A stretch of DNA of 64,000 nt, from assembly GCF_000315545.1 (NCBI RefSeq), contig NZ_JH992902.1:841280-905279 (forward strand). The letters run 5' to 3'. Under the pieces are notes generated by a model. It did not search any database and was not told where the DNA came from. It was given only the letters and a program-made list of their open reading frames with translations. Every line of letters starts with the position of its first letter. The first letter of the stretch is position 1. The DNA comes from Selenomonas sp. F0473 (GTDB lineage: Bacteria > Bacillota > Negativicutes > Selenomonadales > Selenomonadaceae). Positions 4,047-40,400 of this stretch are shown here, one piece after another. A program made the translations under genes and the position numbers.

Positions 4047-4119
4047 AGAAATACCCCCTGTAATTTCCTAGTCTGAGCGCCGCAGGCCAATCCCGCCGCA
4101 CCTTTTTTTCACAGTGTAT

Positions 4120-4147
4120 ATTATAAACCATTCCCAATAAAAGTCAA
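4120..4147 (-). promoter_or_regulatory. promoter of the gap-pgk-tpiA-gpmI operon
   Basis: On the minus strand TTGACT (4147-4142) and a perfect TATAAT (4125-4120) are separated by 16 bp. The predicted transcript begins about 65 bp before the gap start codon. No other hexamer pair as good is seen in this intergenic region. Confidence 0.75.
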
Positions 4148-4175
4148 ACCTTTTATCCCCTGTGAAGCCCTTCCC

Positions 4176-4191
4176 GCGCAAAGTTTTGCGC
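4176..4191. promoter_or_regulatory. palindrome upstream of the gap promoter, possible operator
   Basis: GCGCAAA-GT-TTTGCGC is an inverted repeat with 7-bp arms, about 29 bp upstream of the -35 box. Its position would suit an activator or upstream repressor site. A sequence containing AAGCGCTT, resembling the core of a CcpA cre site, follows at about 4199-4206 but matches the outer consensus poorly. Function is inference only. Confidence 0.3.
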
Positions 4192-4276
4192 AGATGCAAA
4201 AAGCGCTTGCCGCCCCGCAAATCTTCGCTAAAATATGAATAGGGGACGACGCCGACGCTCGGCGCTTCGCGTCAAA

Positions 4277-4322
4277 GGGACCGCCGCATCCGCGCTAAAA
4301 CAGCGTTGATGCGGCGGTCCCT
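4277..4322 (-). terminator. intrinsic terminator after the epimerase gene
   Basis: The arms AGGGACCGCCGCATC (4276-4290) and GATGCGGCGGTCCCT (4308-4322) pair over about 15 bp, with an inner CGCT/AGCG pairing. It begins 8 bp after the epimerase stop codon on the minus strand. The T-tract on that side is short, so efficiency is uncertain. Confidence 0.65.
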
Positions 4323-4329
4323 ATTTGTA

Positions 4330-5304
4330 TTATAAATTCTCCCGATACCACGCGATCGCCTCCGCGACGCCCCGCTCGAAGTCGTATGCGGGAGTGTAGC
4401 CGAGTTTTTCCCGCGCCTTCGCGATGTCCGCCCCGCTGTGGCGGATATCCCCCGCCCGCTCCGGTCCGTAGACGGGCGCGATGTCCTTGCCGAGCAGTCT
4501 CTTGAGCACCGCGTACATTTCGTTGAGGCTCGACTGCTTTCCGCTCGCGATATTATAGGCCTCGCCCGCCGCCTCATGCGGCGCGGCGCAGGCAAGGAGA
4601 TTTGCCTGCACGACGTCCTCGACGTAGACGAAGTCGCGCGACTGTTCTCCGTCGCCGTTGACCGTCGGCGGCATATCGCGCAGCAGCGCCTCGACGAATT
4701 TCGGAACGACCGCCGCATACGCGCCGTTCGGATCCTGCCGCCGCCCGTACACGTTAAAGTAACGCATGCCGTAGCAGTCCAGCCCATAGTGCGTCGTATA
4801 CTGCACGGCGTATTCCTCCGCAACATATTTCGTTACGGCGTAGACGGAGAGGCGCCGCCCTACCGTGTCCTCCCGTTTCGGCATCGTCAAATCGTCGCCG
4901 TAGACCGCAGAGCTCGAAGCGTAGACGAATTTTTTCACATGCGCCTCCGCCGCCGCCTGCATCATGTTGACCGTCCCCATGACGTTCGTCTCCGTGTAGG
5001 CGAGCGGCCGCTCGATGCTCTCCGGCACGCTCACCGCCGCCGCCTGATGGAGCACGTAGTCGGCACCTGTGCAGACGCGCGCGCATGCCGCGAAGTCTCT
5101 GATATCCCCTTCGATCAACTCGAACTTCGGATGCGTACGGAACCCCGCGATGTTCTTCTCATATCCCGTCGACAGATTGTCGAGAACGCGCACGCGATGT
5201 CCCATCGAAAGAATGGCCCCGCATAGATTCGAGCCGATGAATCCGGCGCCCCCCGTCACGAGAAATAAGCTGTTTTTCGGAAAGTCGATCGTACGATAGT
5301 TCAT
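4330..5304 (-). CDS. NAD-dependent epimerase/dehydratase, UDP-sugar 4-epimerase type
   Basis: A 324-residue extended short-chain dehydrogenase that probably epimerises a UDP-hexose for surface polysaccharide. NAD binding is shown by VTGGAGFIGSNL, and the catalytic pair by SVYAVTKY (YxxxK). RYFNVYGRRQDP is the usual substrate-side motif. It resembles the GalE and WbpP-like UDP-GlcNAc epimerases, and the substrate cannot be chosen from sequence alone. Two adjacent ATGs exist (5307 and 5304); the second has better spacing from GGGGG. It lies 24 bp after the PHP phosphatase gene and is followed by a hairpin terminator, so it ends this transcription unit. Confidence 0.88.
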   Translation of the reverse strand: MNYRTIDFPKNSLFLVTGGAGFIGSNLCGAILSMGHRVRVLDNLSTGYEKNIAGFRTHPKFELIEGDIRDFAACARVCTGADYVLHQAAAVSVPESIERPLAYTETNVMGTVNMMQAAAEAHVKKFVYASSSAVYGDDLTMPKREDTVGRRLSVYAVTKYVAEEYAVQYTTHYGLDCYGMRYFNVYGRRQDPNGAYAAVVPKFVEALLRDMPPTVNGDGEQSRDFVYVEDVVQANLLACAAPHEAAGEAYNIASGKQSSLNEMYAVLKRLLGKDIAPVYGPERAGDIRHSGADIAKAREKLGYTPAYDFERGVAEAIAWYRENL

Positions 5305-22418: not shown

Positions 22419-22530
22419 TACACGGAAATGGGAAAACGCCCTCTCCCGTTGATATATCTAGCTTTCCACTGATTATCCGCCAACAAAATAAATACACATA
22501 AATACACCTAAACGGGGATTTTTAAGGCAT

Positions 22531-22553
22531 TTTGTAGACAAATTGTAGACAAA
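22531..22553. repeat. left boundary repeat of the integrated element (attL candidate)
   Basis: A 23-bp sequence made of two tandem copies of TTGTAGACAAA (with one extra T in front) is identical to the one at 31192-31214 just beyond the integrase. The two copies are direct repeats 8661 bp apart. They may contain the crossover core, or be integrase arm-binding sites lying just inside the ends. Confidence 0.65.
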
Positions 22554-22580
22554 AAAAGAGGCGGCATAACGCTGCCCCTC
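22551..22580 (-). terminator. terminator of the left element gene
   Basis: On the minus strand an imperfect GC-rich hairpin (GAGGGGCAGC, loop GTTAT, GCCGCCTC) is followed by seven T. It begins 2 bp after the stop codon of the interrupted membrane-protein gene and overlaps the boundary repeat. Confidence 0.7.
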
Positions 22581-23492: not shown

Positions 23493-24433
23493 TTACTTTT
23501 GTTGTTTATAGTCAAAATCTAGTTTTATCTGATTCGGAGCTTCCTTCACCTCTAAAACCTTCACAGCCGTGTAGGTTGTAGATAGTGCCCCATTTTTGAT
23601 ATTTTGTTCAATACGGAATTTAACCCGCAACATTGCACCTTTTGTGAAGGCTAGTTCACTGCGATCTACTTTTGCATTAAAGGTTTCATCCTCTATGGAA
23701 GCCCAAAAAGAATGTTCACCGTCAGTCAGCTTCCATTTCCCCTCATCGAAATTTGGAGAAATAATCCTAACGAGAAGCACTTGCTCTATTGGTTCGTTGC
23801 ATTCTTCATCGGGGATAGGAGCAGCTTCGGGAGCTTTGAAATTGACAAGCTCTGCTTTTTCAATACGTTCAATAGGCTTTTCATTATCCTTATCGTTCGC
23901 GTCTCGAATCTCGAAAGAATCAATCCCTTCCTGCGACACCGGAGCAACGATTTTTTCAATACTTTTCCTACAATCAACATTCAAGTAAACATTGAGCAAT
24001 TTTTGTTTAATGATAAGAGATTCTTCATCAGATAGATGAACCGTCGCCTGTTCATCGCTCTCGCTCGTTATTCCAGTAATCTTTCGCCCGCGAATCCTCT
24101 TGATAAGGGAAAAAACACCCGCGTCGCCGTACCTCCCCAGCCTAATACCTCCATAAGGTCTTTTAAGCCGGATTCCTCAGCGCCGCTCATAAACAACTTT
24201 GCTTGCTCTAGGATATTGATGTCCAAAAGAAAGGTAATGTCAAAAGAACCACGCCGGATACTATCTGCATTCAGCATAACTTTTATGTTATGTTCACTGC
24301 CGATCACATCGCTAATCTGTCGGATTAGGTCTGAGAACGCAATCAGCGCAGGAGCGAGATCTCGGACGTCCATTGCACCGTTTTCGATTGCCGCTCCGCC
24401 GTATGCGATGCGTGCCTTTCGCGTAATGTTCAT
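23493..24433 (-). pseudogene. element gene of unknown function, split by a -1 frameshift
   Basis: The first part (24433-24068, 121 codons) opens MNITRKARIAYGGAAIENGA and includes MDVRDLAPALIAFSDLIRQI and RRGSFDITFLLDINIL, then runs out of frame after GWGGTA. The -1 frame takes over with GVFSLIKRIRGRKITGI and stays open to 23493 (..LDFDYKQQK). The switch is at a run of six T on the coding strand (A at 24110-24115); one more T would give a single ~313-residue protein. I recall similar MDVRDLAPAL proteins as unnamed proteins of mobile elements; function unknown. A sequencing error or slippage at the homopolymer is possible. Confidence 0.65.
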
Positions 24434-25143: not shown

Positions 25144-25165
25144 GAAACCATTAGGAGGTGATAAG

Positions 25166-25558
25166 ATGGATGTGAAGTCATATACCGCCTCAAAAATAAG
25201 GGAATATCGGAAGTTGCGCGGACTGACTCAAAAAGAACTGGGAGAAAAAATCGGCGTAAAACATAACACTATCTCCGGCTATGAGAGTGGTACAAACGAG
25301 CCGGAGCAAGATCTTTTATTCAAGATAGCATCTGCCCTAGAGGTTAGCATCAATGACCTTTTTCCAGACACTACAAATAACACCTCATCTTACTATTACG
25401 ACGACGAAGTCGCCGCCATAGCAAATGAAATAAAGGACAATCCGGGTATCAGAGTTTTATTCGATGCCTCTCGCGGGCTAAAAAAAGAGAGCATCGAAGA
25501 AGTCCGTCGTTTCATAGAATTTCAAAAAGCAAAGGAGAGAGGAGACTATGAGGGATAA
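25166..25558 (+). CDS. XRE-family phage-type repressor
   Basis: A 130-residue DNA-binding protein. Residues about 8-65 are a Cro/C1-type helix-turn-helix (IREYRKLRGLTQKELGEKIGVKHNTISGYESGTNEP). The C-terminal half (EEVRRFIEFQKAKER) is helical and probably dimerises or contacts the partner protease. ATG 25166 is fixed by AGGAGGTG upstream; the longer frame back to 25115 runs through the promoter. It overlaps the ImmA-like gene by 11 bp, a classic repressor/anti-repressor pairing of mobile elements. Confidence 0.9.
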   Translation: MDVKSYTASKIREYRKLRGLTQKELGEKIGVKHNTISGYESGTNEPEQDLLFKIASALEVSINDLFPDTTNNTSSYYYDDEVAAIANEIKDNPGIRVLFDASRGLKKESIEEVRRFIEFQKAKERGDYEG

Positions 25559-25778
25559 CGTACGGGAGGTAATACAGGACCTTCCAATCGGTATTAAGGG
25601 ATTTGTTGTCGAGGACGGCGCAGAAGATTTTTATACCATCGTTCTAAATGCTCGCTATTCAAGGGAAGCGAACATCGAGACATATAGACACGAGTTGAAG
25701 CATATTGAAGATGGAGACTTACGCAGCGGAGAATCCGCCGATGATATAGAGGTGAGAGCACATGGAAGGCAGTACTAG
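25548..25778 (+). CDS. small ImmA/IrrE-like metallopeptidase
   Basis: A 76-residue protein with a zinc-protease motif HELKH at residues 48-52 (ETYRHELKHIEDGD). In ICEBs1-type systems ImmA cleaves the ImmR repressor to induce the element; the overlap with the repressor gene supports the same role. It is much shorter than typical ImmA proteins (about 150 residues), so it keeps only the helix bearing the active site; the third zinc ligand is not obvious. It may be a reduced, still functional form. Confidence 0.7.
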   Translation: MRDNVREVIQDLPIGIKGFVVEDGAEDFYTIVLNARYSREANIETYRHELKHIEDGDLRSGESADDIEVRAHGRQY

Positions 25779-26244
25779 GACGGAAATTATAATACAACTT
25801 ATTTCAACTTTGATTGTTGGAGGAGTTGTTCTGCTTTATAAATACCTCCCCAGATTGGCACATAGAACAGATAAAGAAACTGTGATGATAAAATGTAAAT
25901 CTTTTTTAGAAGGATACGATGATTTTAATGTTCGTTGCGTGAAGAACATTTTAATCTCTCATATAGATAAGCAGCATTCAAACGAAGAAATTCACCGTGC
26001 CATAACGATAGAAAATCTATCTCATAAAAACTCAGCCCTATTTTTAATCGGCAACACGTCTTTTGATTTACTCATTTCGGGACGGTTTCACATATACAGA
26101 GGACGTTTATCCCCAGAAGGCAATGGCTTATATAGATTATTCAACGATGCCTACAAAGAACTAGTAAAAGAAAATCTTTTATCAAAAGACGACTATGATG
26201 AAACCTTATCCGAGCTAAATACCGAAATAAAAGAAATTGGATAA
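25762..26244 (+). CDS. membrane-anchored protein of unknown function
   Basis: A 160-residue protein, not recognised. One N-terminal membrane segment (IIIQLISTLIVGGVVLLYKYL, about residues 9-29) is followed by a cytoplasmic-looking, Lys- and Asn-rich domain with a helical end. It overlaps the ImmA-like gene by 17 bp and ends 41 bp before the DUF805 gene. Codon use is AT-rich, unlike the host genes. Confidence 0.6.
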   Translation: MEGSTRTEIIIQLISTLIVGGVVLLYKYLPRLAHRTDKETVMIKCKSFLEGYDDFNVRCVKNILISHIDKQHSNEEIHRAITIENLSHKNSALFLIGNTSFDLLISGRFHIYRGRLSPEGNGLYRLFNDAYKELVKENLLSKDDYDETLSELNTEIKEIG

Positions 26245-26284
26245 ACAATTAGAGGATATATTTCCTATCCGAGGAGGAATTGAC

Positions 26285-26836
26285 ATGGATGTATTATCAA
26301 AACTCAAGAATGGCTTTCTTTATTTCTTCCGTTTCTCTGGAAGAATGGGAAGAAAAGAGTTTATAAGAAATATATTATTCCTACTTCTCTTTACTTTTTT
26401 ATTTTCTATTGTCGCATTGCCTATTGGAGAACTTGTTTCGCCTGACAAGCCCGATGTTGTTAATTTTCTCTTTATATTCTTATTTGCAGTTTGCTATATT
26501 GGAATTATTCTCGCGGGCTTATCATCATTTTCTTTTTGTATCCGCAGAGCAAGAGATATTTCAAAGCATTGCATTATCGCCATTCCGATAATATTTCTTT
26601 TATTATTTTACCTCCAGTTTCAACAGCAACACGCCTTTCATCAAACTGTAAACATAGCATCAAATACTATGGGTAAAAATGTTTCAAAAGATGCTGAACG
26701 TGCCGCGCAAAAAGACGCACGCCCCTATGTAGAAGCTTATGAGGGATATAAACAAAAGAAACAGATTCTGATGCTATTATTCCCCGTCATACTTGCAGCC
26801 CTCCCAACCGATTCATTACGGAGGAAAGCAAAATGA
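26285..26836 (+). CDS. DUF805 family membrane protein
   Basis: A 183-residue integral membrane protein. The opening FSGRMGRKEFIRNILFL is the DUF805 signature (the aromatic/basic start of this family), followed by about four hydrophobic segments; SFSFCIRRARDISKH is the second conserved motif (RRxRD). The usual function is unknown. ATG 26285 follows GAGGAGG. It overlaps the next gene by 4 bp. It is a cargo gene in the AT-rich rightward unit. Confidence 0.78.
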   Translation: MDVLSKLKNGFLYFFRFSGRMGRKEFIRNILFLLLFTFLFSIVALPIGELVSPDKPDVVNFLFIFLFAVCYIGIILAGLSSFSFCIRRARDISKHCIIAIPIIFLLLFYLQFQQQHAFHQTVNIASNTMGKNVSKDAERAAQKDARPYVEAYEGYKQKKQILMLLFPVILAALPTDSLRRKAK

Positions 26837-27210
26837 ACACAAACAAAATATGCATCGCCGTTGCTGCGCTGTCCCTGCTCTCAACAGCCGCTCTCGGTGT
26901 CATCACCTATCAGCAGCAAAACTATATCCAATCTATAAAAGCGCAGCTGCCGAAAAAAGAATCGGCAAAAAAAGCAACATACACACTGCAGGATGCAAAA
27001 TCCGATATTGACGCCTTGCAATCCAAGATGTCTTATCTTGAATCTAGCGTCGATGACCTAGAGGCTCACCTCAATTCACTTGATGATGACGTGTCTAATA
27101 TCCCCATCAGAGTGGCAGGACTAGAAGATGATATAGATGCGACACGGGCAAGTCTTAACAGCCTCATCTATCAGTTGAACTTGAACTCACGTTCAAATTA
27201 CTACTATTGA
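26833..27210 (+). CDS. membrane-anchored coiled-coil protein of unknown function
   Basis: A 125-residue protein with an N-terminal membrane segment or signal (IAVAALSLLSTAALGVITYQQ) and a long heptad-rich coiled coil (DIDALQSKMSYLESSVDDLEAHLNSLDDDV and DDIDATRASLNSLIYQLN). It ends in SNYYY. Not recognised. It shares a 4-bp overlap with the DUF805 gene, so it is likely translated together with it. Confidence 0.65.
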   Translation: MNTNKICIAVAALSLLSTAALGVITYQQQNYIQSIKAQLPKKESAKKATYTLQDAKSDIDALQSKMSYLESSVDDLEAHLNSLDDDVSNIPIRVAGLEDDIDATRASLNSLIYQLNLNSRSNYYY

Positions 27211-27268
27211 TATAAAATTTTACATCTCCCCTGACCGAGATATAAAAATCCGCGATTTTTACTATCTC

Positions 27269-27314
27269 AAAGTATACTTTACATTTTCGGCAGTAATATC
27301 TTAAAGTATACTTT
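27269..27314. promoter_or_regulatory. two identical 12-bp palindromes AAAGTATACTTT
   Basis: Perfect palindromes AAAGTATACTTT at 27269-27280 and 27303-27314, with centres 34 bp apart (about three helical turns). They lie between the coiled-coil gene and the beta-family-like gene, as expected for a cooperative dimeric regulator. The binding protein is unknown. Confidence 0.5.
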
Positions 27315-27369
27315 GTATCTTTGATATCACACCACGTAACCCCTTGATATACAAGGCTTTGTGGACACA

Positions 27370-27421
27370 AAAGGACTACAAAAGGACTACGAAAGGACTA
27401 GCATCATGCGTTTAGTCCTTT
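27370..27421 (+). promoter_or_regulatory. three 11-bp tandem repeats and a hairpin in the leader of the beta-family-like gene
   Basis: AAAGGACTA occurs at 27370-27378, 27381-27389 and 27392-27400 (11-bp period), and its inverted copy TAGTCCTTT at 27413-27421. The inverted copy can pair with any of the three, so alternative hairpins are possible upstream of the start at 27502. Confidence 0.5.
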
Positions 27422-27501
27422 CCAAAATAAAAGCCGCCAACTCTGCTGTAACAGAGAGGACTGCGAAGCAATATCTTTTTAAAAGGGAGTGTATTTTCAT
27501 C

Positions 27502-28488
27502 ATGACGACTTATTTTCCTATTTTGAAATGGAAACGAGGAGAACAAATCGCATTACAAAATATAGGGGGTACTGCACCTCAATTAATGCCAGTAATCCAA
27601 ATAGTAGATGATAGCACACCAACAGATTTTTGCGATTCCATCAGAACATATTACAATCACCCTATCTACCTTGATACATCAAATCACCCTGATGAAGATG
27701 ATCATCTTTCTGTATTAAATTCGTATATCCAATATGCACAAGCTAACGGCTTTGCTATATATCCCATTGTGAATTATCCTGATATTGCCTACATTCCCTC
27801 AAACATAAATAGATGCGCTGTTTATCTCCCCATCCCACTTGATTTTAATGGACCACAAATCCACCAAATACTCAGTGATATATCTCAATATACATCCAAT
27901 CTTCAGTTAGATATATTTTTAAATGCTGGCAACATCCTTGACCAACAAACGGCCAACATATGTTATTCCCAGTATATATCAATACTACAAGGACTCATTC
28001 CACTCAAAGCACAATGTATCATTTGTTCAACGTCCTTTCCTGATGACATATCCTCTATCGGAAATGGTTGTTTTGCTGAATATCTTAGATATGACTATCA
28101 GATTTTTTCTCAACTAAAACAAGAACCCATATTATCCCCGATTAGAAGTAACATACACTACTCAGATTATGGTGTAACCAAATTCACTGAAAGCGAAATC
28201 AATTTTCGCTTTTTACGTAATGGCGTTCTTCCAAAAATTAGATATACGGCTAGTGATCGCTATATCGTTTGGAAAGGCTCCCGAAATCCACAGATTAACT
28301 ATCATCAACTATCAAGACAAGTGATTAACTCTATGTATTACTATGGTGCTCACTTCTCTTTTGGAGATCAAAACATTGATCGAATAGCACAAGGAAATGC
28401 AGGTGTCGGTAACAATACTAATTGGGTAACATACGCTTGCAATCACCATCTTGCTGTTGTATTGCAACAGATTTCCACGGTTCCCTAA
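27502..28488 (+). CDS. beta-family / sce7725-like protein, candidate defence component
   Basis: A 328-residue soluble protein. The start TTYFPILKWKRGEQIALQNI and the following PVIQIVDD match the beginning of beta-protein/sce7725-like families (YxPILKxKxGE..AL, then PxIEI); the rest looks like a TIM-barrel-type repeat of strands and helices (IYLDTS, IYPIVNYPD, LDIFLNAGNI). ATG 27502 is chosen because homology begins there; the upstream frame from GTG 27361 crosses tandem repeats. Its 3' end overlaps the opposite sce7726-like gene by 71 bp. Function is not established; the pairing suggests a two-gene module. Confidence 0.6.
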   Translation: MTTYFPILKWKRGEQIALQNIGGTAPQLMPVIQIVDDSTPTDFCDSIRTYYNHPIYLDTSNHPDEDDHLSVLNSYIQYAQANGFAIYPIVNYPDIAYIPSNINRCAVYLPIPLDFNGPQIHQILSDISQYTSNLQLDIFLNAGNILDQQTANICYSQYISILQGLIPLKAQCIICSTSFPDDISSIGNGCFAEYLRYDYQIFSQLKQEPILSPIRSNIHYSDYGVTKFTESEINFRFLRNGVLPKIRYTASDRYIVWKGSRNPQINYHQLSRQVINSMYYYGAHFSFGDQNIDRIAQGNAGVGNNTNWVTYACNHHLAVVLQQISTVP

Positions 28489-29041
28489 CTTTTAGTTGTT
28501 CTCTAACAATTAGGGGGATCTGATCATGCGATATATGGGCTGTCAGCAATTCCCCTAGTTGTTTTCTGGTTTTACTTTTATATCCTTTACGGATATCTGT
28601 ATACATCATCAAGGCGTTGATCATCTCATCTCTCCACAATAGTAAGATTAGGCTATCAACATCAATATTTTTATTTATCTGCCCTTTCCGTATGGTTGTA
28701 ATAACAATTTTTGAGTTCTTCTCCTTTACGCTTTTTACCGTCCACCATGAAGGAATTAACTCGTATATTTTATCAAGATGATTTTCAAAAACAACAAGTG
28801 TCATCGTATCAAATATTTTATTGTAATCTTCTACTTGTCTAGGAAGCCGTTCTAAATTATCTTGCTTACTTTTTATCTCATAACCATGCATCTTTCCATT
28901 TATAACGGCTATATCAATACGTGAACGACCTGCACAAATATCCATTTCATCAACAACAATGGTAGGGGTTTTTATGAAATCTTTACGTTGATAGAAACCT
29001 CTGTATAAGATTTTCCTAATATCACTATCGTAGATTTTCAT
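28418..29041 (-). CDS. sce7726-like protein with PD-(D/E)XK nuclease-type motif
   Basis: A 207-residue protein. RIDIAVINGKMHGYEIKSKQDNLERLPRQVEDY fits a PD-(D/E)XK core: Asp-43, then Glu-55 and Lys-57 in E-I-K, with the Gln-containing helix after it. sce7726-family proteins are known beside sce7725-family proteins, here the convergent neighbour. A nuclease role in defence is inference. The last ~23 residues are encoded antisense to the neighbour's C-terminus and may be an extension. AT-rich codon use, like the neighbour. Confidence 0.65.
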   Translation of the reverse strand: MKIYDSDIRKILYRGFYQRKDFIKTPTIVVDEMDICAGRSRIDIAVINGKMHGYEIKSKQDNLERLPRQVEDYNKIFDTMTLVVFENHLDKIYELIPSWWTVKSVKEKNSKIVITTIRKGQINKNIDVDSLILLLWRDEMINALMMYTDIRKGYKSKTRKQLGELLTAHISHDQIPLIVREQLKVREPWKSVAIQQQDGDCKRMLPN

Positions 29042-29145
29042 GTATTATTCCCTTCATTCGTTAACCATTCTACAAGTTAATTGTACCATATACGTCAACT
29101 AAAAACCGCCCGCGATGTTGGCGCATCACGAGCGGAATAGCAGAA

Positions 29146-29577
29146 TCAGCGTTTCAACTGATTCACTAGTTTTTGTTTTTCAACAATCTCTTTTACATTG
29201 GCACGTTTCCCATAGATGAACGTACCGACCAAAGCAGAAATCCCCATAAGCATTGTCCCGAGGCCTTCAAGAGAATGCCCCGTTACAACAATCCATGCAC
29301 CAAAGCCTATTGATGCAAGCCCTAACAAAAATCCGCAGATAATCCCTGCAAGACTATTTATGGACTGAGATTTAACAACACGCCTTTCTATATCTTGACG
29401 ATGCCCCGCTTGGTTCTCTGCCATCGTAATGATACGATCAGCAGCTCCCGGGCATATCTCCTCATAGTCTGCCAAATGAACAGGCGGCGGCAAGGGGCCT
29501 TCAAAGTGTCCCGCATATGTTACACCTTGATTCTGCTTTACAACAGTATCGTTTCTTTGCTTTTTATTACTGCCCAT
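29146..29577 (-). CDS. DUF2335 family membrane protein
   Basis: A 143-residue protein. The first half holds the DUF2335 signature (FEGPLPPPVHLADYEEICPG, then ADRIITMAENQAGHRQDIE), followed by two membrane segments (about 75-95 and 100-120) and a basic end. Function is unknown. Its ATG lies inside the 67-residue gene, 11-bp overlap, so the two are translationally coupled and may form a two-component module of the element. Confidence 0.82.
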   Translation of the reverse strand: MGSNKKQRNDTVVKQNQGVTYAGHFEGPLPPPVHLADYEEICPGAADRIITMAENQAGHRQDIERRVVKSQSINSLAGIICGFLLGLASIGFGAWIVVTGHSLEGLGTMLMGISALVGTFIYGKRANVKEIVEKQKLVNQLKR

Positions 29578-29770
29578 ATTCCACGCTCATTGCGTTGCGC
29601 AGATCATTCCCCACAACACGCCAATCATGCGCTAAAGCATTACGATCAGCTTCTTCTGGCGTGGAGGATTCATTGTAGGTATTCAGCGTTGAGCCCATAT
29701 CAAAAACGGATGCCATACCTTTCAAGAATCCGATCTCGGAAAACAGCAGGCTAACATATCCCTTTTCCAT
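29567..29770 (-). CDS. small element protein coupled to the DUF2335 gene
   Basis: A 67-residue protein, not recognised. It has a hydrophobic start (YVSLLFSEIGFLKGMASVF) and a polar, acidic C-terminal half ending in EYGQ; ALAHDWRVVGNDLRNAM looks like a small conserved motif. Start ATG 29770 is fixed by AGGAGGTG; an ATG 11 codons upstream would have no site. It is first in the two-gene minus-strand unit with DUF2335. Confidence 0.6.
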   Translation of the reverse strand: MEKGYVSLLFSEIGFLKGMASVFDMGSTLNTYNESSTPEEADRNALAHDWRVVGNDLRNAMSVEYGQ

Positions 29771-29791
29771 AAAGCAACACCTCCTAAATTG

Positions 29792-29800
29792 ATTATAGCA
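29792..29800 (-). promoter_or_regulatory. extended -10 promoter for the DUF2335 unit
   Basis: The minus strand reads TGCTATAAT, an extended -10 box, 21 bp before the start codon of the 67-residue protein. A TTGACA lies only 8 bp upstream of the -10, too close to serve as its -35. Confidence 0.45.
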
Positions 29801-30000
29801 CAATTTGTCAACGCCAAAAAATTCTCTATTTACTTCTATTACGTTCTATTATATTCATTAGCTTAAAAACCGTCCCCCATGCTACCAAGACAGAGGACGG
29901 CTCGAGCAAGCATCCCGAAGGGTATACTCACCGCAACAGGAACAGTATATCACACTTCCGGTTTGTTCGCTATCCCCTACAAACCCAGAGGTGTTTTATT

Positions 30001-31182
30001 ATGGCAAAAATCAGAGTCCGCAAACGCGGCAAGACGTATTCCTATTCATTCGACATATCCAAAAAGCCCCGCAAGATGAAGGAGAAAGGCGGCTTTGCCA
30101 CCGAGCAGGAAGCCTTCGATGCGGGGACGACGGCATATGCGGCATGGAAAACGGGCAACGTCGGCATCACGAGCGCAAAAGTCACGCTCGACGAGTTCAT
30201 TGTGTCGTGGCTTGAGAACGTCGTCAAAGGGAGCACAAAACAGCGAACGCACCATATCTATGAATACCAATACAGGCTATACATATCCCCATACATTGGG
30301 ACGATGTCATTGCAGGATATACGTCCCCGAGACATTGATCGCACAGTTCACGAACTAGTGGAAAAAGGATTATCACACGGAACAATATCCTCTGCTCTAC
30401 GCGTTGCGCATATCGCGTTCAAGTATGCCGTCTATCCATCTGAACTCATACAGATGAATCCGACAGAATATATAACAATCCCAAAAACAACAAAGAAAAA
30501 AGTGGTTAAACATACGATTATCAGCAAGCAGCAATTCAACGATCTTTTAGCGATATTCCCGTTCCCTCATCGGTATAGGATTCCATTGATGATAGCCTAC
30601 TATACGGGCATGAGGCTCGGAGAGGTGCTCGGCCTCACATGGGACGACATATCGATAGAGGGAAAGACCATCTCGGTATCCCGCCAGCTTTGCCCCGCCA
30701 CAAGCGCCGTGCCCGCATATTTTGATACGCCGAAAACAACGACAAGCAGCCGTACTATTTGCATCGGTAGTACCCTTCTATCCGCCCTAAAACAATGGAA
30801 GAACATTCAGAACGGATTCCGCCTCAAACTCGGCATAGTATATCAAATCGCCTATGAAATGCCGGACAGTAGAATATTGCATTTGCTCCCCCGCAAGGAT
30901 GCCGCCCCGCATGACGCAAAAGAGCGCCCTCTTGTATGTACCGATCACTTCGGCATTCCTGTGAGTCGTGCATCCATTATAGAACGCTTGCGGCATTTGG
31001 GATTAAATTCTCATAGTTTCCGCCACACACACGCCACTCGCTTAATTGAAAGCGGGGCAAAAGCCGTTGATGTCGCCGCTCGTCTCGGTCATACAGATGC
31101 AACAATTACGCAGAATCTATACACGCACGATACGGAAGCGATGCAAAGAGAAACCGCAGCCCTCACTGATACGGTTTTGTAG
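30001..31182 (+). CDS. tyrosine-type site-specific integrase
   Basis: A 393-residue phage-type recombinase that would integrate and excise the element. Residues 1-60 are an AP2-like arm-binding domain (KIRVRKRGKTYSYSFDISKK), 62-150 the core-binding SAM-like domain, and 175-385 the catalytic domain with Arg-205 (TGMRLGEVLGLTW), His-338 and Arg-341 (HSFRHTHATRL), His-364 (LGHT) and nucleophile Tyr-374 (QNLYTH). All catalytic residues are present. Its stop codon lies within one copy of the decamer TTGTAGACAA, which continues as the boundary repeat. ATG 30001 follows AGAGGTG. No excisionase gene is recognised. Confidence 0.95.
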   Translation: MAKIRVRKRGKTYSYSFDISKKPRKMKEKGGFATEQEAFDAGTTAYAAWKTGNVGITSAKVTLDEFIVSWLENVVKGSTKQRTHHIYEYQYRLYISPYIGTMSLQDIRPRDIDRTVHELVEKGLSHGTISSALRVAHIAFKYAVYPSELIQMNPTEYITIPKTTKKKVVKHTIISKQQFNDLLAIFPFPHRYRIPLMIAYYTGMRLGEVLGLTWDDISIEGKTISVSRQLCPATSAVPAYFDTPKTTTSSRTICIGSTLLSALKQWKNIQNGFRLKLGIVYQIAYEMPDSRILHLLPRKDAAPHDAKERPLVCTDHFGIPVSRASIIERLRHLGLNSHSFRHTHATRLIESGAKAVDVAARLGHTDATITQNLYTHDTEAMQRETAALTDTVL

Positions 31183-31191
31183 ACAACCATG

Positions 31192-31214
31192 TTTGTAGAC
31201 AAATTGTAGACAAA
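31192..31214. repeat. right boundary repeat of the integrated element (attR candidate)
   Basis: Identical 23-bp copy of the left repeat: a T followed by two tandem TTGTAGACAAA. A third, partial copy (TTGTAGACAA, 31176-31185) overlaps the integrase stop codon. The interval from 31215 to 31497 holds only terminators and short inverted repeats (for example TTTGTAAAG and CTTTACAAA) and no gene I can support. Confidence 0.65.
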
Positions 31215-31220
31215 TGCTTA

Positions 31221-31263
31221 ATAAAAGCCCCTCTTCCTATTGAAAAACAATGGATTGAGAGGC
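31221..31263 (+). terminator. probable integrase terminator
   Basis: AAGCCCCTC and GAGAGGCT-type arms flank an inner ATTG/CAAT stem, followed by TATTATTTAT. The stem has mismatches, so it is a moderate call. Confidence 0.5.
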
Positions 31264-31423
31264 TATTATTTATACTCCCCCATTATAGATGGAAGGCCGT
31301 CCTTTGTAAAGCCGACAGTATCAGCATCGGACGCAAAGCCCTTGACTTTACAAAATGCTCCTTACAATTGGGAAGGATTACAATAAAAACCGCCTCATAA
31401 CGAACGAAGAATCATAGTTCAAG

Positions 31424-31468
31424 AAAACGCGCCCCGCGGTCGTAGCATTCGACCGCGGGGCGCGTTTT
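31424..31468. terminator. bidirectional terminator after the giant TPS gene
   Basis: A perfect 19-bp stem (AAAACGCGCCCCGCGGTCG, 31424-31442, with 31450-31468) and a 7-nt loop, followed by T on both strands. It lies 29 bp after the stop of the 3058-residue protein gene. Confidence 0.9.
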
Positions 31469-31497
31469 ATTTACTTGAGACGTCGGCGGGCAAATCC

Positions 31498-34400
31498 TTA
31501 CCCGAACACCTCGTTCATCAGCTCAAATACGGCATCATCCGTCGCATAGATGTCCGGCGTGCGGACGTTCTTTCCGTCCCGGATCGAGTTGAGTGCGGGA
31601 TTGCGGTATGCGACCGCAGCCTCCGAAGCGCGCCCGAAGTTACCATGCTGGTCGAGCGACGCGTTCTCATAGGCGTACTCATCGGGGAGCATCTTATTCT
31701 GCGCGAGGACATTGTAGTAATTCGCATCCGGGATATACGGCCCGACATGGAGCGCCGTCGCGTTCGCGGGATCCTGCACAAAGCGATAGTTCCAATAGAC
31801 GACCTCTCCCACCGCGGGGGCATAGGAGCCGTTAACGGCATAATCTCCCATGCGCAGGCGCGCATCCGGCGCATCGTAACTGAACGTCCCCCGGAGATGT
31901 TCGCCGTTCACGCCCGTTGCGTAGCCCGGCGCAGGATATGTGCCGTCGGGCGTTCCCGTATAGCTGCCGCGCGGCGGCAGTCCCTCGTTGATCCAAACGG
32001 TCTTCGGATCGGCCTTCATCCGAATCTCTACGGGATTGATCCTCCCTGTCGCAGTCGTCACATCATAGGTCAGCGTCGTTCTCGCCGGATTCCGCGTGCC
32101 GATGCTGTTCCCATGTTCGTCAACGAGCTCGTAATTCGACAAAGGACTGCCCGAAAGACTAAATCGATAGTCTACATCCTTGTTCGCGACATCATTGCGA
32201 TCCTGCCACATCGCGTTCGGATCGGCGTTCCCGTTCGGCGTCCATGCGACATCCTTGTCGGCATAGGCGGCCGCCGAACTGTGCGCGATGTGCGGCCGAT
32301 CGGCTTTGACAATGCCCTCCTCATCGTCGTAACGAGTCTCTTCATTCTCGTTATAGTGTCGGAAGTGCCGGATCGCAAGGGATTCCCGGGTAATGACGTT
32401 CCCGTCCGCATCTTTCGCGATACCGACGATTTCTTTGTTCCCGTCATAAGTCTTGGTCGGATTGATCGACTTCATGTCGGCAATCAGCTTGCGCGGCGTA
32501 ATGTATCCCTTATTTACTGTCGGCGTAAAGGTATTTCCTCCGGCGATCACAAAATTCCCGCCCGTATAGGTCAGCGCATAGGTGACATTGTGCGACGCAC
32601 CGCCGTTGACATTTGCGTTGTCATAGTGCGTGCCCGATGCGTCGACGGACAGATCGTCTTTGTTCAGTTCAATCGTTTCCGAGCCGCTCCGATACGTGGC
32701 GCCGTTCAGATAGTTCTTGACCGAATCGCCGTCCGATTTGCCATGATACTTGACCGAGGTGTCTCCGTCATACTCCTTCGTTGCATTCTTGAAGTCAAAG
32801 GTGATATCGCTCTGATTGATCCTGCGCGGATTGATACGCCCCTTTCCCTGTGTCGCGGTATAGCTTACGCCGTCGTTTTCGAGTCGATAGTTCTTCGCAT
32901 CCGACGCCGTGTTGCGCGCGGCATAATCGTTCAGTGCATCGTTAAAGCCTGTGTAGGAAACCGCCTTATCGACGACATTACCGTTGGCATCGCGGCTCAC
33001 GTTTGAGTCGGCATATGCCCCTCGAATTTTATTCATCGCCGTTTGATCAAGGCGCAACGTATCTCCGTTCACAACGCCATGGAACGTCATATCGCCCGCT
33101 GCAAGATCCTTGACGGCGGCTGTGCCGTCATAGTCCTTGACCTTGCGCGCAACATCCGCCGTCAGCGTCTTTTTGTAGATATCTGCTTTTCCTGTCGCGA
33201 TCCCCGCACCGACGGTATAATTTTGGCTTGCTATCGGATCCCCCGAGAGCGTCAACGTATAATCGACATTAATCGCGCCTGCGCCGTTCTCCCTTCGGGC
33301 TTCGGCTTGTTCCTTCGTGTCTACCGTCGCATCCTTGCTTGCATACCGGCCCTCCACTTTGAGATGTACCTTGCCCTTATCCTTTGAAACGATAAGATCC
33401 TCGTCATCGAGTACCATCTTATCGATGAGCGCCTGATTCTCCCTGCTCAGCTCCCTTGTCCCGTCATATTCCTTATAGATATTCTGCGGAACATGCGCCG
33501 TGAGATTGCGCGGCGTGATGGTGCCCGTTGTATGCCCATACACAACACTGCCGCCCTCGATATCGAAATTCCGCGTGCTCAGCGTGAACTCATAGTCCAC
33601 CATATTATTTGAATAGGCAACATTTTCGTCCCTGTACGCCGCCTTGTTCAGCGTAATATCATCGGGATTGACAGGAGTATCAACCCCGTTGAGTTTGAAA
33701 GTACTCGACCGGAAGTAATTGCTCGCATCGCCCTTCTTGTGCGTAATGGGATCCGTCCAAACGACTTTTTTCGTGCCGTCATATTCCTTCGTCGCAGGAT
33801 CAATGTGGAACGTAAAATCGCTCTGCTTGACCCGCACGCGGTCGATCCGCCCCGTGCCAAAACCGGGATCCGTGAACTCATAGTTCCCAGCATCGCCCGC
33901 GAGCACCGTATTCATCGCGCTTCTCACGCCTTGATAGCGGACGGTCTTCGTCCCCGCATTCGGGTCGGCGGTGAACGCATCGCCCGTGCCCATGCCGTAC
34001 TCGCTCGTGATGCCCGTCAGCCCCGTGAGTTTGTTATTGCCGTCCGCAAAGCCCGGCCGGTCGTGATTTAGAACCGCTGCATCGGCAGCGGAAACAGACG
34101 CCGTAACGTCGTTGTTCGTCGCTGTGGTATCGTAGTTTTTCCGTACATCGGCGAAGGTGAGATCGACCCTGCGCTTTGTAATCGTATTGTTGTTCGTTAT
34201 CACGGTTCCGGTAATCGCATTGTTGGAGTCGTCGACAAGGCGATAGTTCCCCGCATTGTCCGCATCAATCCCGATATTGTAGTTCACGATCTTGCTCGTG
34301 CCTGCATTCTTGTCCGCGTACTCTGCCGTCGTGATGTTGGTCGCGCCGTCGCCTGCGACAAGCCCCGTGAGCGTCACGAGATCGTTGCCGGACAGCGCGT

Positions 34401-37400
34401 TCCCCGCGGCGTTCTTGACTGCCGTCGTCGCGTCGTAAGTCTTCGTCAGCGGCCCTTTAATGGTCGCGACGACATCCTTCGGCGTAATGGCGCCGTCGCC
34501 TTTGAGGGAGAGCGTCTGCGCGTTCGGCGCGAGCGCAAAGTTGCCGCTCTCATTTGAGAAGGTGAAGTTATAAGTCACGCGGTTATGGGACGCGCCACTG
34601 TTGACATCCTTCGAATCGTATTCCGCAGAGGTGAGGTTGAGGTCGCCGAGTACGTTCACCGGATTACCGTTGACCATCACGGTTGCGCTGCTGATATACC
34701 CCATGACGTCGGAAAGGTTCTTCGAAGTACCTTTCCATACGGAGGTGTTGCCGTCGTAGACCTTCGTCGCCGTCCCTGCGGTGACAGTCACGCTGCCCGG
34801 CGTAAGCCGGAACGGCGTGATCTCGCCAAGTCCCTTTGCCGTCTCAGCGAGGTTGTAGTTGCCCGCATCCGCACCGCCGAGCTTGAGCTTCGAATAATTG
34901 ACCCAGTTCTTCTGTGCAGTGCCGTCAATGACCGCTGTTGTGCCGTCGCCGCGGACATTTTGACTTTGGAACGATTCGTCGTGTCTGTCGAGCGTTACAA
35001 TATCGCTCCCGATCACCGCGCCTGCGATAAATCCAACGTCCCCGGGCTTGACATTTTTCGTCCCGTCGTAAACCTTCGTGATTTTCTTAAACGCACCCGA
35101 AAGGTCCTTCGGCGTGATCCTGCCCGTCGCGGAGAGCGTCAGACCGTTCTCCGCGTTGACCGTCGCATGCCCGTCCGAAAGCGTATAGTTGCGCGCGTCG
35201 CCGCCCGCGATGTTGACCGTATAGGTGATGTTTTTATCGACAACATTACTGCCTGAACGTGCGACGTTCTTATCCGCGTATTTTGACGCGATGTTAAAGC
35301 TCGTGCCGTCGGTCGTGACGAGTTTATCTTTCGCCGTCGCACTGTCCGCATATTTGACGTTGCCCGCAGTGTCGACATCTGTCAGCATATTCCACTTCTT
35401 CGCCGCCGTATCGACAAGGTCCGACGTTCTATCATAGACTTTATCAATACCGCTGTTCTGCACAAGGTCGAGACTGAGCACGCGCCGTGTGATCTCGCCC
35501 TCGCCCGTGACGTTTACCTGCCCCGATTCGAGGTTCTGTCCGTTCAGCGTATAGTTTTTCAGCAGATCGCCGTAACCCACATCCGCCGTGACGTCCACCT
35601 TATACGCAACGCGCGAGGCATCGGCGACGTTCGCCGTATCTGTCACGTTGTCGCTTTTCCTGAATTTTGCATTCCCGGGGACAAGCTCAAAGTGAATACG
35701 ATTGCCGTCCGTGCCGACAAAGCCACTCGTCCCCGGCCGGAGTTTCCAGCCCGAGAGCACCTGATAATCGGCAGTACCGTCGTAGACCTTCGTCGCCTTT
35801 CTTACGGTGCCGCCTGTATCGACGACTTTGAAGTCATCGGGCGTAATCGCTTTACGGTTGATCGTTCCCTTGCCGTACAACGTGTCGTCTACTTCGTAGT
35901 CGCCTGCAAGCTGCGTGCCGAATGCGTTCTCAAACGCCTTCTTCATCTGCGTGTAGCGGACGTCATGCGGCGTGCTGTTGCTGGCATTGGCATTCTTTTG
36001 GAACGCTGTCCCCGTACCGCGCCCATAATCGCTCGTCGCGGGATCGGTCGCCGCGCTCGCGCGCGCGTTCCACTTAGCAGAAAGGATTTCTTTTGTGATA
36101 TTGTCACTCGCCACGGCGTTTGTAATTCCCGCAACGGTCGCTCCCATCGTGTTTTTCGACGTGCCGTCATAGGTCTTACTGACGTCGGCCATCGTGATAT
36201 CCAGCTTGCGCGGGGTGATCGTTCCTTTGTTTGCCTGCAAACCGAGATTCGCCGTGACGGTCTGCCCTGCCCCGGAGCCGCTGCGCGTACTAATGACATG
36301 ATTTGAGTCGTCGACAATCTGATAGTCGTCCGCATACTGTCCCGTGAGTTGTCCTTGATAGGTGACGTTTTTCTTAATAATATTGCCGTCCGCACCGCGC
36401 GAGACATGCTGATCCGCATACTTTGCAGTCGAGGTATTCTCTCTCGTATCGGCGGGCTTCACCCAGCCCGTGAAGCTGACAACCGTGCCGCCTTTCTTCA
36501 CCGTGCGGTTGCCGTCCGTATGCTCCGCAAGGCCGTCGTAGACCTTCTCAATCTCATGCGTCACAGCCTTGAGCGACGCAGGGGTAATAGACCCTGCCGA
36601 CGTTGCATGGGCGGGATCGTCATCGTTGACGTTTTCTAAATTGCGCTCTGATCCCGATGGACCAAACGTATAGTTCGTGAGCGGGTTATTCGCCGCGTCC
36701 GACGTCTGCGCCACGATGTCATAGGCGACATACTGCGCCTCGGAAACGTGGGAGGTCTGCTGGTTGCCCGCCGCATCCTTGGTAAAATGTCCCGGCGCTC
36801 CGTTCTTCAGACGGAACGTGATCTTTTTATAGTCGCGCGACACGATCCCCTCGTTTGGGGTAGACGCCTGCGGCGTGACAAGTTTCGCACCGTTGGGCAG
36901 ATTGTAGTCGGAAGTACCGTCGTATACCTTCGTCGCATCGGCAAGCGGATCATCGCCCTTGAGCACTTTAAAGCCCGTCGGATCGATGCGGCGGCGCGTA
37001 ATCTCACCCGTGCCGTATTGCTTATCTGCAACGGAATAGTTCCTGCCGAGGGTGCTGCTGATGCCCGTATACTCCACCGAACGGCTGCCCGCGTTCACAT
37101 TCTCTATGAACGTTGCCGTCGTCGTCCCGTCGCCATAGCGGCTCGTGACGCCTGCAACATTGATGTTGCCGATCGTATAGCCGTCCGCGCCAAGCACAGC
37201 GTTGCCCGTCGTGCCGTCGCTCATGGCACTCAGCGCGGTCTGTGTGTTGGTCGCCGTCCCGTCGTAGATTTTCGTTGCAGGTCCAAACGTGAGCGTCACG
37301 GGGCGCGGCGTGATCGTGCCGAGCCCCGTCAGCGTCGTCGTCCGCGTGACCGTCGTCGTGTTCGGTGCCGTATCAAATGTATAATTATCCGCTTCCTCTG

Positions 37401-40400
37401 CGTTCGGCGTCGTAAAGGCGACGTTATAAGTCACGTTCTGCGTCGTGGGAACGCCGCCCGAATAGACGACGTTCTTTGAAGCATACGTCGCCGTCGAGGT
37501 ATTCGTCACCGAATCGCCGGAGACAATGCCGCTCAGCGTGACGAGCGCATCGCCCTTAATCTCATTCCGATTGCCGTCCGTATGAGTCTCGAGCGCATCG
37601 TACACTTTCGTAATCGAATCGTTCTTCTTCACCGCCGTGATCGTCTTCGGCGTGATCTTGCCCGCGCCCGTGGCGTTAAAGGTCTCATCCAGCGCCTTAT
37701 GCGTCCCGCCCATATCGACATAGTAGTCGCCGAGTTGGTACTCCGACGGATTATCCGACTGTCCGGTCACGTTATAGGCGATCTTCTCTGCCGTACTCAC
37801 ATTCTTCGTGGCTGTTGTCCCGTCGGATTTGCGGAACTGTCCCTTCCCGCCCGTCAGCGCAAAGGTGATATGTCCCTTATCGCGGTCAACGATGCCCGTT
37901 GTGTCCGTCGTTGCCCCCGCATTCGCGGAGAGATAGAGGTTCGTCGTATCGGGCGCGTACTCGTTATTGCCGTCGTAGACCTTTTGCGCCGATGCCTCTG
38001 TATTGGTCCCCTTGTTGTAGACCTTGAATCCGTCCGTCTTAATCTCGCGCGGAATGATCGTGCCGCCGAGGTAGACATTCTCCCCCGTTACCGCCTGCTG
38101 CGTGCCGCCTGCGGGCGTATAGAAGAGCTCATAGTTCTGCGCATCGTTCGCATAGATGCCGTCCGTGCGAAGCCCGACCCCATCGTACTTGATCTTATAG
38201 GTTCCTACGTGAAACCGCTCCTCCGTACCGGCATCATTGGTATATTTCGGAGTGTCGATATCTTTCAGTTCGACATTATCCCGCGTCCCCCCGTCATCCG
38301 TCATAATCTCGCCTTTTGTCCCGGCGGCAATCGTTTTATTCAGCGCGATATTCGGCGTCCCGCCGGACTGGAGCATCGCCGAATCCACAACCGTGCTCGT
38401 GCCGTCATAAGTCTTAGCGTCCGCCTTTTCCTTTCGGATGGTGAGATAAAGAGGCGCCTTGGTAATGGTAATCTTGCCCTTAATATTACCTAGCGAAGCA
38501 CTATCGAACGTATAGTTTTTCGAGTCCTCTTTCGTGCTGTCGAAGGCGATGGAACCGCCAAAAGTAACTTCCTTTGCCGTGCCGACATGCTTATCCGCCA
38601 TCCGCGCGGTGAGATGCGTCGTATCAAGTCCAACGGAATGATCCGCTAGGTCATCCGCGGTAATCCCGGCTTTTCCTCCGCCCTTGAACGCAGTCTCAAA
38701 TTCGGCTTTAACATCCGTCTTGCCGTTGTAAACGCGCGTAAGTGTCCCGATGGCGTTGAGGGCAAGGCTGACTTTTCTCTGTCCAATCGTCACATTCACG
38801 CCGCGCAGGTTCGGGCCGTGCTGATCCGACCAAACGATCGCCTTTGTTCCCGCGTTACGGATGCCGTTCGCTTTGTCGGCCGCAGAGTTCGTATAGGCAT
38901 ATTCCTTAACTTTATTCGTATCGACGGACGGCTCGTATTGAATCTTTGATTTGTCGCCCGGCGTATCGGGCGTATCCGCATCCACAATGCGAAGATATTT
39001 GCTGTTATAGGTCAGCCCCGTAACATCCGCACCGTTGTTGGTCTTTGGCGTATTCGCCGTATCGTTGACAACGGTTCCGTCCTGATTGAAATACCTATAA
39101 TTATAGGTCGCCGTCGCAGTCCCGTCCATAAACGCAGTCAAAAGCGGCACAGTACGCCCCTCGTAAATGCGCCACGTCGCCCCCGGATCGCCGTTGTTGT
39201 TGATGTCCCAGCCGCTGTAGGTGGACGATGAATACGCATCGTGTTCTGTGGCCGATGGGGTCGGACCGGGGATGACAGGTTTCGCCTTTCCTGTCGATAT
39301 ATCGATAATGTAATTCCCCGATACTTTCGCCGGCGTGAACGATTGGGTCGCAGAAAACTTCTTTGATGTCGTATAAGAATTTCTGATTGTCGTCCCATCA
39401 TCCGGATCAATGACGCGAATGAAAAAGGAATCTCCCGCTACCGCACTTTTCGGTTTATTATAGGTGTTCGTTACCTCGGTTCCGGTATCCGAAAGGCCAA
39501 TAATACCGCCGCCCTCACTTGTGATCGGCGAGGTATTATAGGAACTGTCAATCTTCGTGTGTTGTGTGCATCCTACGATTCCCCCAAATCGACCGCTCTC
39601 CCCCGTAATAGAGCCGCCTTCCACATAGACGTTTTTCAATACGGTATTGCCGGTTGCCTCTCCAACGAGCCCACCCGCTGTATTAACCCCAGCGCCCGTA
39701 TCATTTCCCGCAATCGTCGGAGCAATGACCCCGAGATTTTCGATACGCGCGCCGCTGACCCTGCCAAACAGCGCGGCATGGTCGACGCCCGCGATATTTA
39801 GATTTCGTATCTTATAAAAATTCCCGTCAAATTTTCCCGTAAAAGCCGCATAGGCATTCCCGCCGATCGGCGCGGTAATGCCCGTCATATCAATATCATT
39901 CTCAAGCATATAATTGCCCGCTAAATTTGTTGTATTGATATTGCTTATTTCGGCTGCATTGCTGACGAGCCGGTAGTAATTGTTTGCCGGGGTCGCCGCA
40001 GAGCCATTTACCGTATATCCAGACGTCGGTGCCGTCGTCTTATAGCCGATATGCGCAGTACCGTCGTTTGCGGTATCCGTATGCATCACAACAGATGTGC
40101 TGTGCACATTTGCCGCGTTCAGGAATCGAATGCTTTTCCCCACGACTTCTACGCCGATTGCGGTAACGTTCCCCATATTGACGACGTCGGCTTTGCCGAC
40201 AGGCGATGCTCCAAGAGGATTCGAACCGTCCCATGAAGTCATCGCGCTAAGCGCGGCAGTATCCTGCGTGGAGACATAAAGATTCCCGACGTTCACGCTC
40301 GCCGTCTTACCAAAAATGACGCCGTTCGGGTTGACGATATAGACGTTATTTCCTCCCGTAATATTCCCATTGATTACAGAGCTGTTTCCGCCGCGGACAA

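Follow-up and report, generated by a model that had tools for sequence, protein, structure and literature searches.

A convergent beta and sce7726 gene pair with a conserved antisense overlap, a candidate two-gene defence cassette of mobile elements

Introduction

Why should two genes inside a small integrated element face each other and share the last 71 bp of their coding sequences, and what might such a pair do for its host? The locus lies in a 64,000-nucleotide stretch of the Selenomonas sp. F0473 genome (the window, by which we mean the whole of that stretch). A first-pass annotation had reported two convergent open-reading frames of 328 and 207 amino acids with a 71 bp overlap of their 3' ends, which are present exactly as described, and had proposed that they form a nuclease and partner directed against phages or other elements. 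The beta and sce7726 families and the gop-beta-cII system of P4 are already known; the pair without gop as a unit, its regular convergent overlap and the fixed register of that overlap were not found in the open-licence literature.

Results

The gene pair and its integrated element

The features of the locus are, by coordinate:

22531..22553, no strand: left end of the element, attL-like 23-bp direct repeat
27269..27314, no strand: operator-like 12-bp palindrome 5' of beta, two perfect copies starting at 27269 and 27303 (repeat scan)
27370..27421, no strand: 9-mer 5' of beta, three direct copies and one inverted, direct copies spaced 11 bp apart
27450..29111, no strand: block common to the window and the viral contig L036 at 87% identity, the pair with margins of 52 and 70 bp (blastn)
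27502..28488, plus strand: beta-family gene, 328 aa from ATG, predicted TIM barrel (PF14350, PADLOC, structure model)
28418..28488, both strands: antisense coding overlap of the beta and sce7726 3' ends, 71 bp (ORF coordinates)
28418..29041, minus strand: sce7726/P4 cII-family gene, 207 aa, predicted PD-(D/E)XK nuclease (NF033832, PADLOC, model)
28447-28449 and 28484-28486: codons of beta H316 and sce7726 R186, 37 bp apart
29106..29164: two terminator-like hairpins, one per strand, 5' of the sce7726 start (terminator scan)
30001..31182, plus strand: tyrosine integrase of the element (ORF list and NCBIfam)
31192..31214, no strand: right end of the element, attR-like 23-bp direct repeat

The pair is enclosed in a phage-like element of ~8.7 kb, delimited by the 23-bp direct repeats and with its integrase gene immediately inside the right end, so that the earlier placement within an integrated element holds. 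Leftward of the pair the element carries an amidase and a split phage protein, a LAPAL/PDC-S42 (phrog_3243) homologue broken over two ORFs (23493-24433, minus strand), owing to which the element looks partly decayed. Directly beyond its right end is a repetitive ORF of 3058 aa (31498-40674, minus strand), judged by eye to be possibly a haemagglutinin-like surface protein. The AT-richness noted previously is borne out, the GC content of the pair being 0.352 against 0.575 for the whole window, which suggests by composition an origin outside this genome.

The closest relative of the pair is in L036, where sce7726 is 81% and beta 88% identical. As the DNA match to this contig comprises the pair and short margins, giving the two a shared cassette with common edges, just these two genes seem to have moved as a unit here; in a blastn of 26801-31600 against L036, matches outside the pair block were limited to two integrase stretches. 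A DNA comparison with plasmids gave one partial match for the pair.

An operator-like leader had also been proposed upstream of beta, whose ORF in the mechanical call extends back to a GTG at 27361. The palindromes and 9-mer repeats do exist, and four 9-mer copies in the leader were reached by none of 100 shuffles, but as they lie outside the block matching L036, which starts at 27450, they cannot be counted as the pair's own. Part of the leader (27349-27383) belongs with both element ends (22509-22554 and 31181-31226) to one repeat family of 66% identity, and the 11-bp repeat spacing is common to the leader and the ends; the leader repeats are perhaps an old attachment-like site. The terminator scan, covering 27150-29250, returned two hairpins against 1.0 expected in shuffles, a weak signal, and no terminator-like site between beta and sce7726.

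Both proteins belong to known families with predicted folds

The 207-aa protein is sce7726-like, as had been thought: it scores 181.1 bits against NF033832 (cut-off 70), aligned over positions 2-183 of 184, and 95 bits against the PADLOC cll model. The residues D43 and E55-x-K57 that had been singled out are present in the window and, together with E32 and Q69, invariant in all 82 rows of our alignment of the family (A6), whilst Y73 is conserved in 99%. An E, a D, an E-x-K and a Q-x3-Y are the defining residues of PD-(D/E)XK nucleases. In the structure model (pLDDT 92, of low confidence past residue ~190) three consecutive strands bear E32, D43 and E55/K57, and the helix that follows bears Q69. 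VIA-align gave a best Z of 9.5, to 3dnx, with just two chains at Z of at least 8 among the matches listed; the named matches listed are mostly PD-(D/E)XK nucleases by title, including PaqCI (Z 8.4), EndoMS/NucS (7.4-7.6), Can2, Card1 and Cap4. Foldseek returned no match under 0.001 for this model, and the best hit in a sequence search of solved structures had an E-value of 0.63. With its alpha-beta core and intact motif the protein is thus predicted to be a PD-(D/E)XK nuclease, in line with the earlier proposal, the support from fold comparison being modest. Judged by title, we found no paper on the function of sce7726 or sce7725. In the Gordonia phage DumpsterDude (L039) the sce7726 gene (4001-4600, plus strand) is unannotated, and a short antisense ORF is annotated instead.

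The 328-aa protein had been said to open like the beta and sce7725 families. The first half of this stands: it matches PF14350 (Beta_protein) at 118.4 bits (cut-off 27) over positions 1-341 of 342, and among PADLOC models it scores 95.4 bits with PD-Lambda-2_C (PDLC03984) and 19 bits with beta. The second half does not, as it has no NCBIfam match of any kind up to an E-value of 1 and a different gene architecture; a true sce7725 protein scores 344.6 against NF033831. The beta protein is predicted to fold as a TIM barrel, (beta/alpha)8: in VIA-align its model (pLDDT 93.1) had a best Z of 13.4, the 50 matches listed (Z 11.5-13.4 over 181-241 residues) being TIM-barrel enzymes or designs as far as their titles are recognisable, and the one Foldseek match under 0.001 was a triosephosphate isomerase. 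In a sequence search of solved structures the best E-value was 0.01, to a designed protein. In the DSSP string of the model the conserved charged residues D58, R196 and D222 are each found where a strand ends or immediately past it, which suggests a pocket there. At three loci (L127, L137 and L066) beta is split into two ORFs alongside an intact sce7726.

Beta and sce7726 are neighbours and convergent

That the two proteins belong together was examined in two surveys. The first used whole genomes, 398 from the window's phylum (its own included), 246 from the family of a Klebsiella locus and 246 from the phylum of a Parafrankia locus; these samples are less biased than the locus set described below, and each contains its own or the seed genome. 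Among the 398 Bacillota genomes sce7726 was over its cut-off in 22 and beta in 11, and in all 11 beta genomes sce7726 was adjacent and convergent, with an overlap of 44-71 bp that was always 2 modulo 3; beta was in two pieces in G212 and lacked its start in G077. Seven of the remaining 11 sce7726 genes run in the same direction as an sce7725-like neighbour and a third gene with a cysteine motif; the neighbourhood of sce7725 and sce7726 mentioned in the first-pass annotation does occur, but in an arrangement unlike that of the window pair. One further gene (L005) sits beside a fragment resembling sce7725 by eye, and the last three (L009, L020 and L021) had neither of the two neighbours within their 1.5-kb flanks. 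Within 121 genomes of the window's own family sce7726 matched in four: the window, G664 (convergent, overlap 68) and two tandem sce7725 forms.

In the Klebsiella-family sample beta and sce7726 were each found in 12 genomes and together in eight, adjacent and convergent in every case; seven of these pairs overlap, by 4-41 bp (four of the seven in phase 2 modulo 3), whereas the two genes are 55 bp apart in L219. The four beta genomes with no sce7726 match are PD-lambda-2 loci (B 589-620 bits, C 508-522 bits), which implies that beta can work with other partners. In the phylum of the Parafrankia locus beta was found in two genomes, with sce7726 in the seed genome alone, where they are convergent.

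The second survey comprised 160 loci fetched by sce7726, 80 viral and 80 genomic, being the best 80 of 230 and the best 80 of 345 confirmed, and several loci of the first genome sample recur among them. As they were fetched with window-like sce7726 alignments (A2 and A4) and the best kept, they under-sample the sce7725 type. Beta was detected by profile in 147 of these best loci, convergent with sce7726 in all 147; the coding sequences overlap in 144, by 4 to 140 bp, the exceptions being L157 (gap of 39), L166 (abutting) and L193 (gap of 14), and the overlap phase is 2 modulo 3 in 137 of the 147. Together with the spacing described below, this convergence is far beyond chance. By our own assignment from record titles the beta-bearing loci come from Bacillota, Pseudomonadota, Actinomycetota, Acidobacteriota, Bacteroidota, Nitrospirota, Planctomycetota, Myxococcota, Elusimicrobiota and Omnitrophota, and include one archaeal MAG contig that may reflect a binning error.

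The other 13 best loci divide into four at a contig edge (L060, L144, L146 and L176, where the contig ends within 190 bp of sce7726), two Xenorhabdus copies of the same locus and seven from Melainabacteria or cyanobacteria. Downstream of sce7726 in the Xenorhabdus loci (L063 and L159) are, by eye, kinase-like and phosphatase-like ORFs. In five of these seven, of Melainabacteria type (L167, L174, L185, L187 and L190), an sce7726 with a long C-terminus directly faces a non-beta protein of ~713 aa, which in the one scanned (L187) is DUF4388/DUF4384.

The overlap keeps one base register

Phase alone is not the argument, since 2 modulo 3 is the commonest phase for convergent overlaps generally, found in 49% of 1218 overlaps of at least 5 nt in the counts given in PMC2174442. 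We instead measured the distance between the codons for sce7726 R186 and beta H316, with the two proteins aligned separately, in 71 largely non-redundant pairs (the window, 25 viral and 45 genomic). The count drew on 77 beta rows from a non-redundant set of 90 and on 79 sce7726 rows from one of 89, to which L073 and L193 were added; L092, L155, L161 and L186 are among those left out, and two row pairs exceed 80% identity (window/L041 and L064/L073). The distance is exactly 37 bp in 57 of the 71 pairs and the register the same in 65, whilst six (L064, L073, L114, L163, L166 and L193) are far outliers at 52-81 bp. By a second route eight of 11 further pairs could be placed: four have the 37-bp spacing (Rac-SA53, the Gordonia phage, L014 and L216), the others 40 (L022), 67 (G664), 76 (L218) and 23 bp (L222), and P4, L219 and L223 could not be placed.

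Constant tail lengths cannot account for this spacing, as 3 to 47 residues follow R186 and 5 to 22 follow H316. Outside the overlap the beta proteins average 27% identity and the sce7726 proteins 41%, and the recurrence of 37 bp despite such divergence and such variable tails implies that the overlap is old and mostly locked base for base; in some lineages the lock has been released. In a gapless nucleotide profile of the 57 loci the codons for W189-R190 of sce7726 are interleaved with those for Q323-L324-S/A325 of beta (K190 and I324 in the window). A conserved hairpin or bidirectional terminator within the overlap was considered and rejected: the share of the 57 loci with z below -2 was 5% on one strand and 4% on the other, where control stretches gave 7% for each, and no conserved RNA structure was found on either strand. 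In our preferred reading this base-for-base interlock of the C-terminal codons binds the two genes to each other against recombination.

Genes beside the pair

The pair is mostly found without companions. Counting ORFs of at least 100 aa, beta has a co-directional one no more than 60 bp upstream in 14 of 70 loci, and sce7726 has one in three; the medians of the distance to the nearest such ORF upstream, whatever its direction, are 271 and 247 bp. In 61 of these loci the flanks could be classified (in the other nine they were at an edge or too far away): the neighbours are both co-oriented with sce7726 in 22, and other patterns account for 17, 13 and 9, whilst in the window there are same-strand neighbours on each side of the pair.

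In 11 genomic loci among the 160 best, one cluster of ORFs recurs beside the pair. At three of them (by title, L147 and L194 from Nitrospirae and L197 from Omnitrophota) a full PD-lambda-2 A-B-C operon is convergent with sce7726, scoring 124-138 bits for A, 478-538 for B and 118-221 for C. The cluster member is a weaker PD-lambda-2 B match (107-122 bits) in L154, L168 and L170, and the small gene preceding it in L154 and L168 had no PADLOC match. The member in L183 and L191 bears just a weak resemblance to M78, which falls short of the Pfam cut-off, and it lies beside a gene of ~208 aa that looks PIN-like by eye, which Pfam did not confirm in L183. Separately, a Peptidase_M78 gene precedes beta in L219, L222 and L223.

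Discussion

What the pair may do

On balance we lean slightly towards a defence module, in which the window pair would be a small mobile cassette of two genes, akin to the beta and cII part of P4 gop-beta-cII, that protects the lysogen against other phages or elements. The sce7726 protein would be the effector, a PD-(D/E)XK nuclease able to serve without gop, and the beta TIM barrel would sense infection or license the nuclease through direct interaction, acting as the common trigger part, with the two genes interlocked. Kinship with gop-beta-cII and PD-lambda-2 favours such a role, as had been anticipated, P4 beta and cII being of the same families in the same convergent order; so do the invariant catalytic residues and the correlation of beta with sce7726 protein distances (r 0.67 against a permutation maximum of 0.14, host phylogeny not being controlled). 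Weighing against it, we found no published phenotype for a gop-less pair, and sce7726 exists also with sce7725 or, in Melainabacteria, facing an unrelated gene.

Two other roles have to be set beside defence. That sce7726 is a phage DNA-processing or regulatory protein and beta a metabolic TIM-barrel enzyme, with no part in defence, strikes us as quite improbable: TIM barrels are mostly enzymes, we know of no assay of the gop-less pair, and the top VIA-align row for sce7726, 3dnx, is a protein of unknown function, but the kinship is with two tested defence systems, and many of the sce7726 fold matches listed are defence or restriction nucleases by entry title. Maintenance of a toxin-antitoxin kind, whereby sce7726 alone would be toxic and beta would restrain it, stabilising the element without any defence against phages, we consider unlikely, if less so. 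Toxin-antitoxin pairs seldom consist of convergent genes that each have their own upstream region, and the median upstream gaps of the pair point the same way. The presence of the family on phages, elements and plasmids does fit such a role, and the gop protein of P4 is toxic in the absence of beta (PMC9122126, citing Ghisotti 1990), which means that beta can act as an antitoxin; however, PD-lambda-2C, the beta relative, is reported as needed for defence against lambda-vir and dispensable for toxin neutralisation (PMC9519451).

The overlap itself admits two accounts. An expression switch, in which strong expression of either gene would hold back its partner through collision or pairing of the two convergent transcripts, is in our view doubtful. 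It has a precedent in tha/ith of Staphylococcus aureus prophages, an antisense arrangement needed to balance immunity and autoimmunity according to PMC11087260, and it fits the lack of a terminator-like site between the genes in the scan of the window and the 22 of 61 loci where both neighbours run sce7726-ward and beta is therefore antisense to its surroundings. Yet the other flank patterns are common too and the window is of another kind, conserved RNA structure is absent from the overlap in the 57 loci, P4 has a gap and an annotated terminator in its place, and a collision of transcripts needs no fixed coding register. A frozen accident is simpler and we rate it above the switch, as marginally the probable account: the overlap would be hard to undo because any break harms both proteins, and its conservation would be uninformative on regulation. 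This agrees with the conserved residues of both proteins encoded there and with the general commonness of the phase; against it stand the lineages that have come unlocked, with spacings of 52-81 bp in six of 71 pairs and no overlap in L157, L166, L193, P4 or L219, which show that escape is possible. The pair is a clear case of an antisense overlap held in one base register between proteins that keep about a quarter to two fifths of their residues, and the question of regulation versus frozen accident therefore becomes testable.

A broader reading, that beta/sce7726 is the ancient core of a defence class comprising gop-beta-cII, PD-lambda-2-type, M78-linked and minimal forms, with the overlap kept both as a switch between nuclease and restrainer and as a tie between the genes, is speculative and probably goes too far.

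Comparison with known systems

Of the known systems gop-beta-cII, which protects against lambda and P1 (PMC9122126), shares both families with the window. In P4 (NC_001609) the gene order is gop (plus), beta (plus) and cII (minus), with cII annotated as sce7726; beta and cII are convergent and, as in the window, the integrase gene adjoins cII. The two differ in that P4 has a 27-bp gap with its terminator where the window has the 71-bp overlap, in that gop lies upstream of beta in P4, and in that window beta is closer to the PADLOC model PD-Lambda-2_C than to beta (95 against 19 bits). A hidden gop in the window was rejected: PADLOC found none in the ORFs 25762-26244, 26282-26836, 26833-27210, 25160-25558 and 29146-29577, and phmmer with P4 gop matched no ORF of at least 60 aa in the 160 best loci, P4 itself serving as positive control, nor any of at least 40 aa in L212-L235. 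The window pair is thus a gop-less relative of gop-beta-cII. Such pairs occur elsewhere: Beta and CII of Escherichia phage Rac-SA53 have no gop annotation and are likewise convergent, with a 41-bp overlap and the 37-bp spacing, but are 23% (beta) and 38% (sce7726) identical to the window pair and have a lambdoid prophage context. Among 5426 E. coli genomes 93 carry a pair of this type, and in the 12 of them that were listed both genes have RefSeq labels.

With the sce7726-sce7725 tandem (NF033832, NF033831) the window has the sce7726 family in common; the tandem is co-directional and carries the third, cysteine-motif gene, whereas the window pair is convergent with no sce7725 match. In a profile comparison (hhalign) sce7725 aligned to beta over 129 C-terminal columns with a probability of 81% and an E-value of 1.2e-5, thus it is a probable distant relative of beta. 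The noncontiguous operon tha/ith resembles the pair in that a prophage defence gene is regulated by an overlapping antisense gene (PMC11087260), but its proteins, a HEPN RNase and its inhibitor, are unrelated, and the analogy is one of arrangement alone.

PD-lambda-2 consists of a HigB-like A, an XRE-peptidase B and the beta-related C, the nearest PADLOC model to window beta. The four genes upstream of window beta had no match to PD-Lambda-2_A or _B, the matches of the HTH gene at 25160-25558 being confined to the HTH part of other PADLOC models, and the PD-lambda-2 loci L212-L215 are without sce7726. The system is described in PMC9519451 by three components that do not include sce7726, yet its A-B-C operon faces sce7726 in the three loci described above, from two phyla, which suggests a core common to two published defence systems and obscured by the way they are defined.
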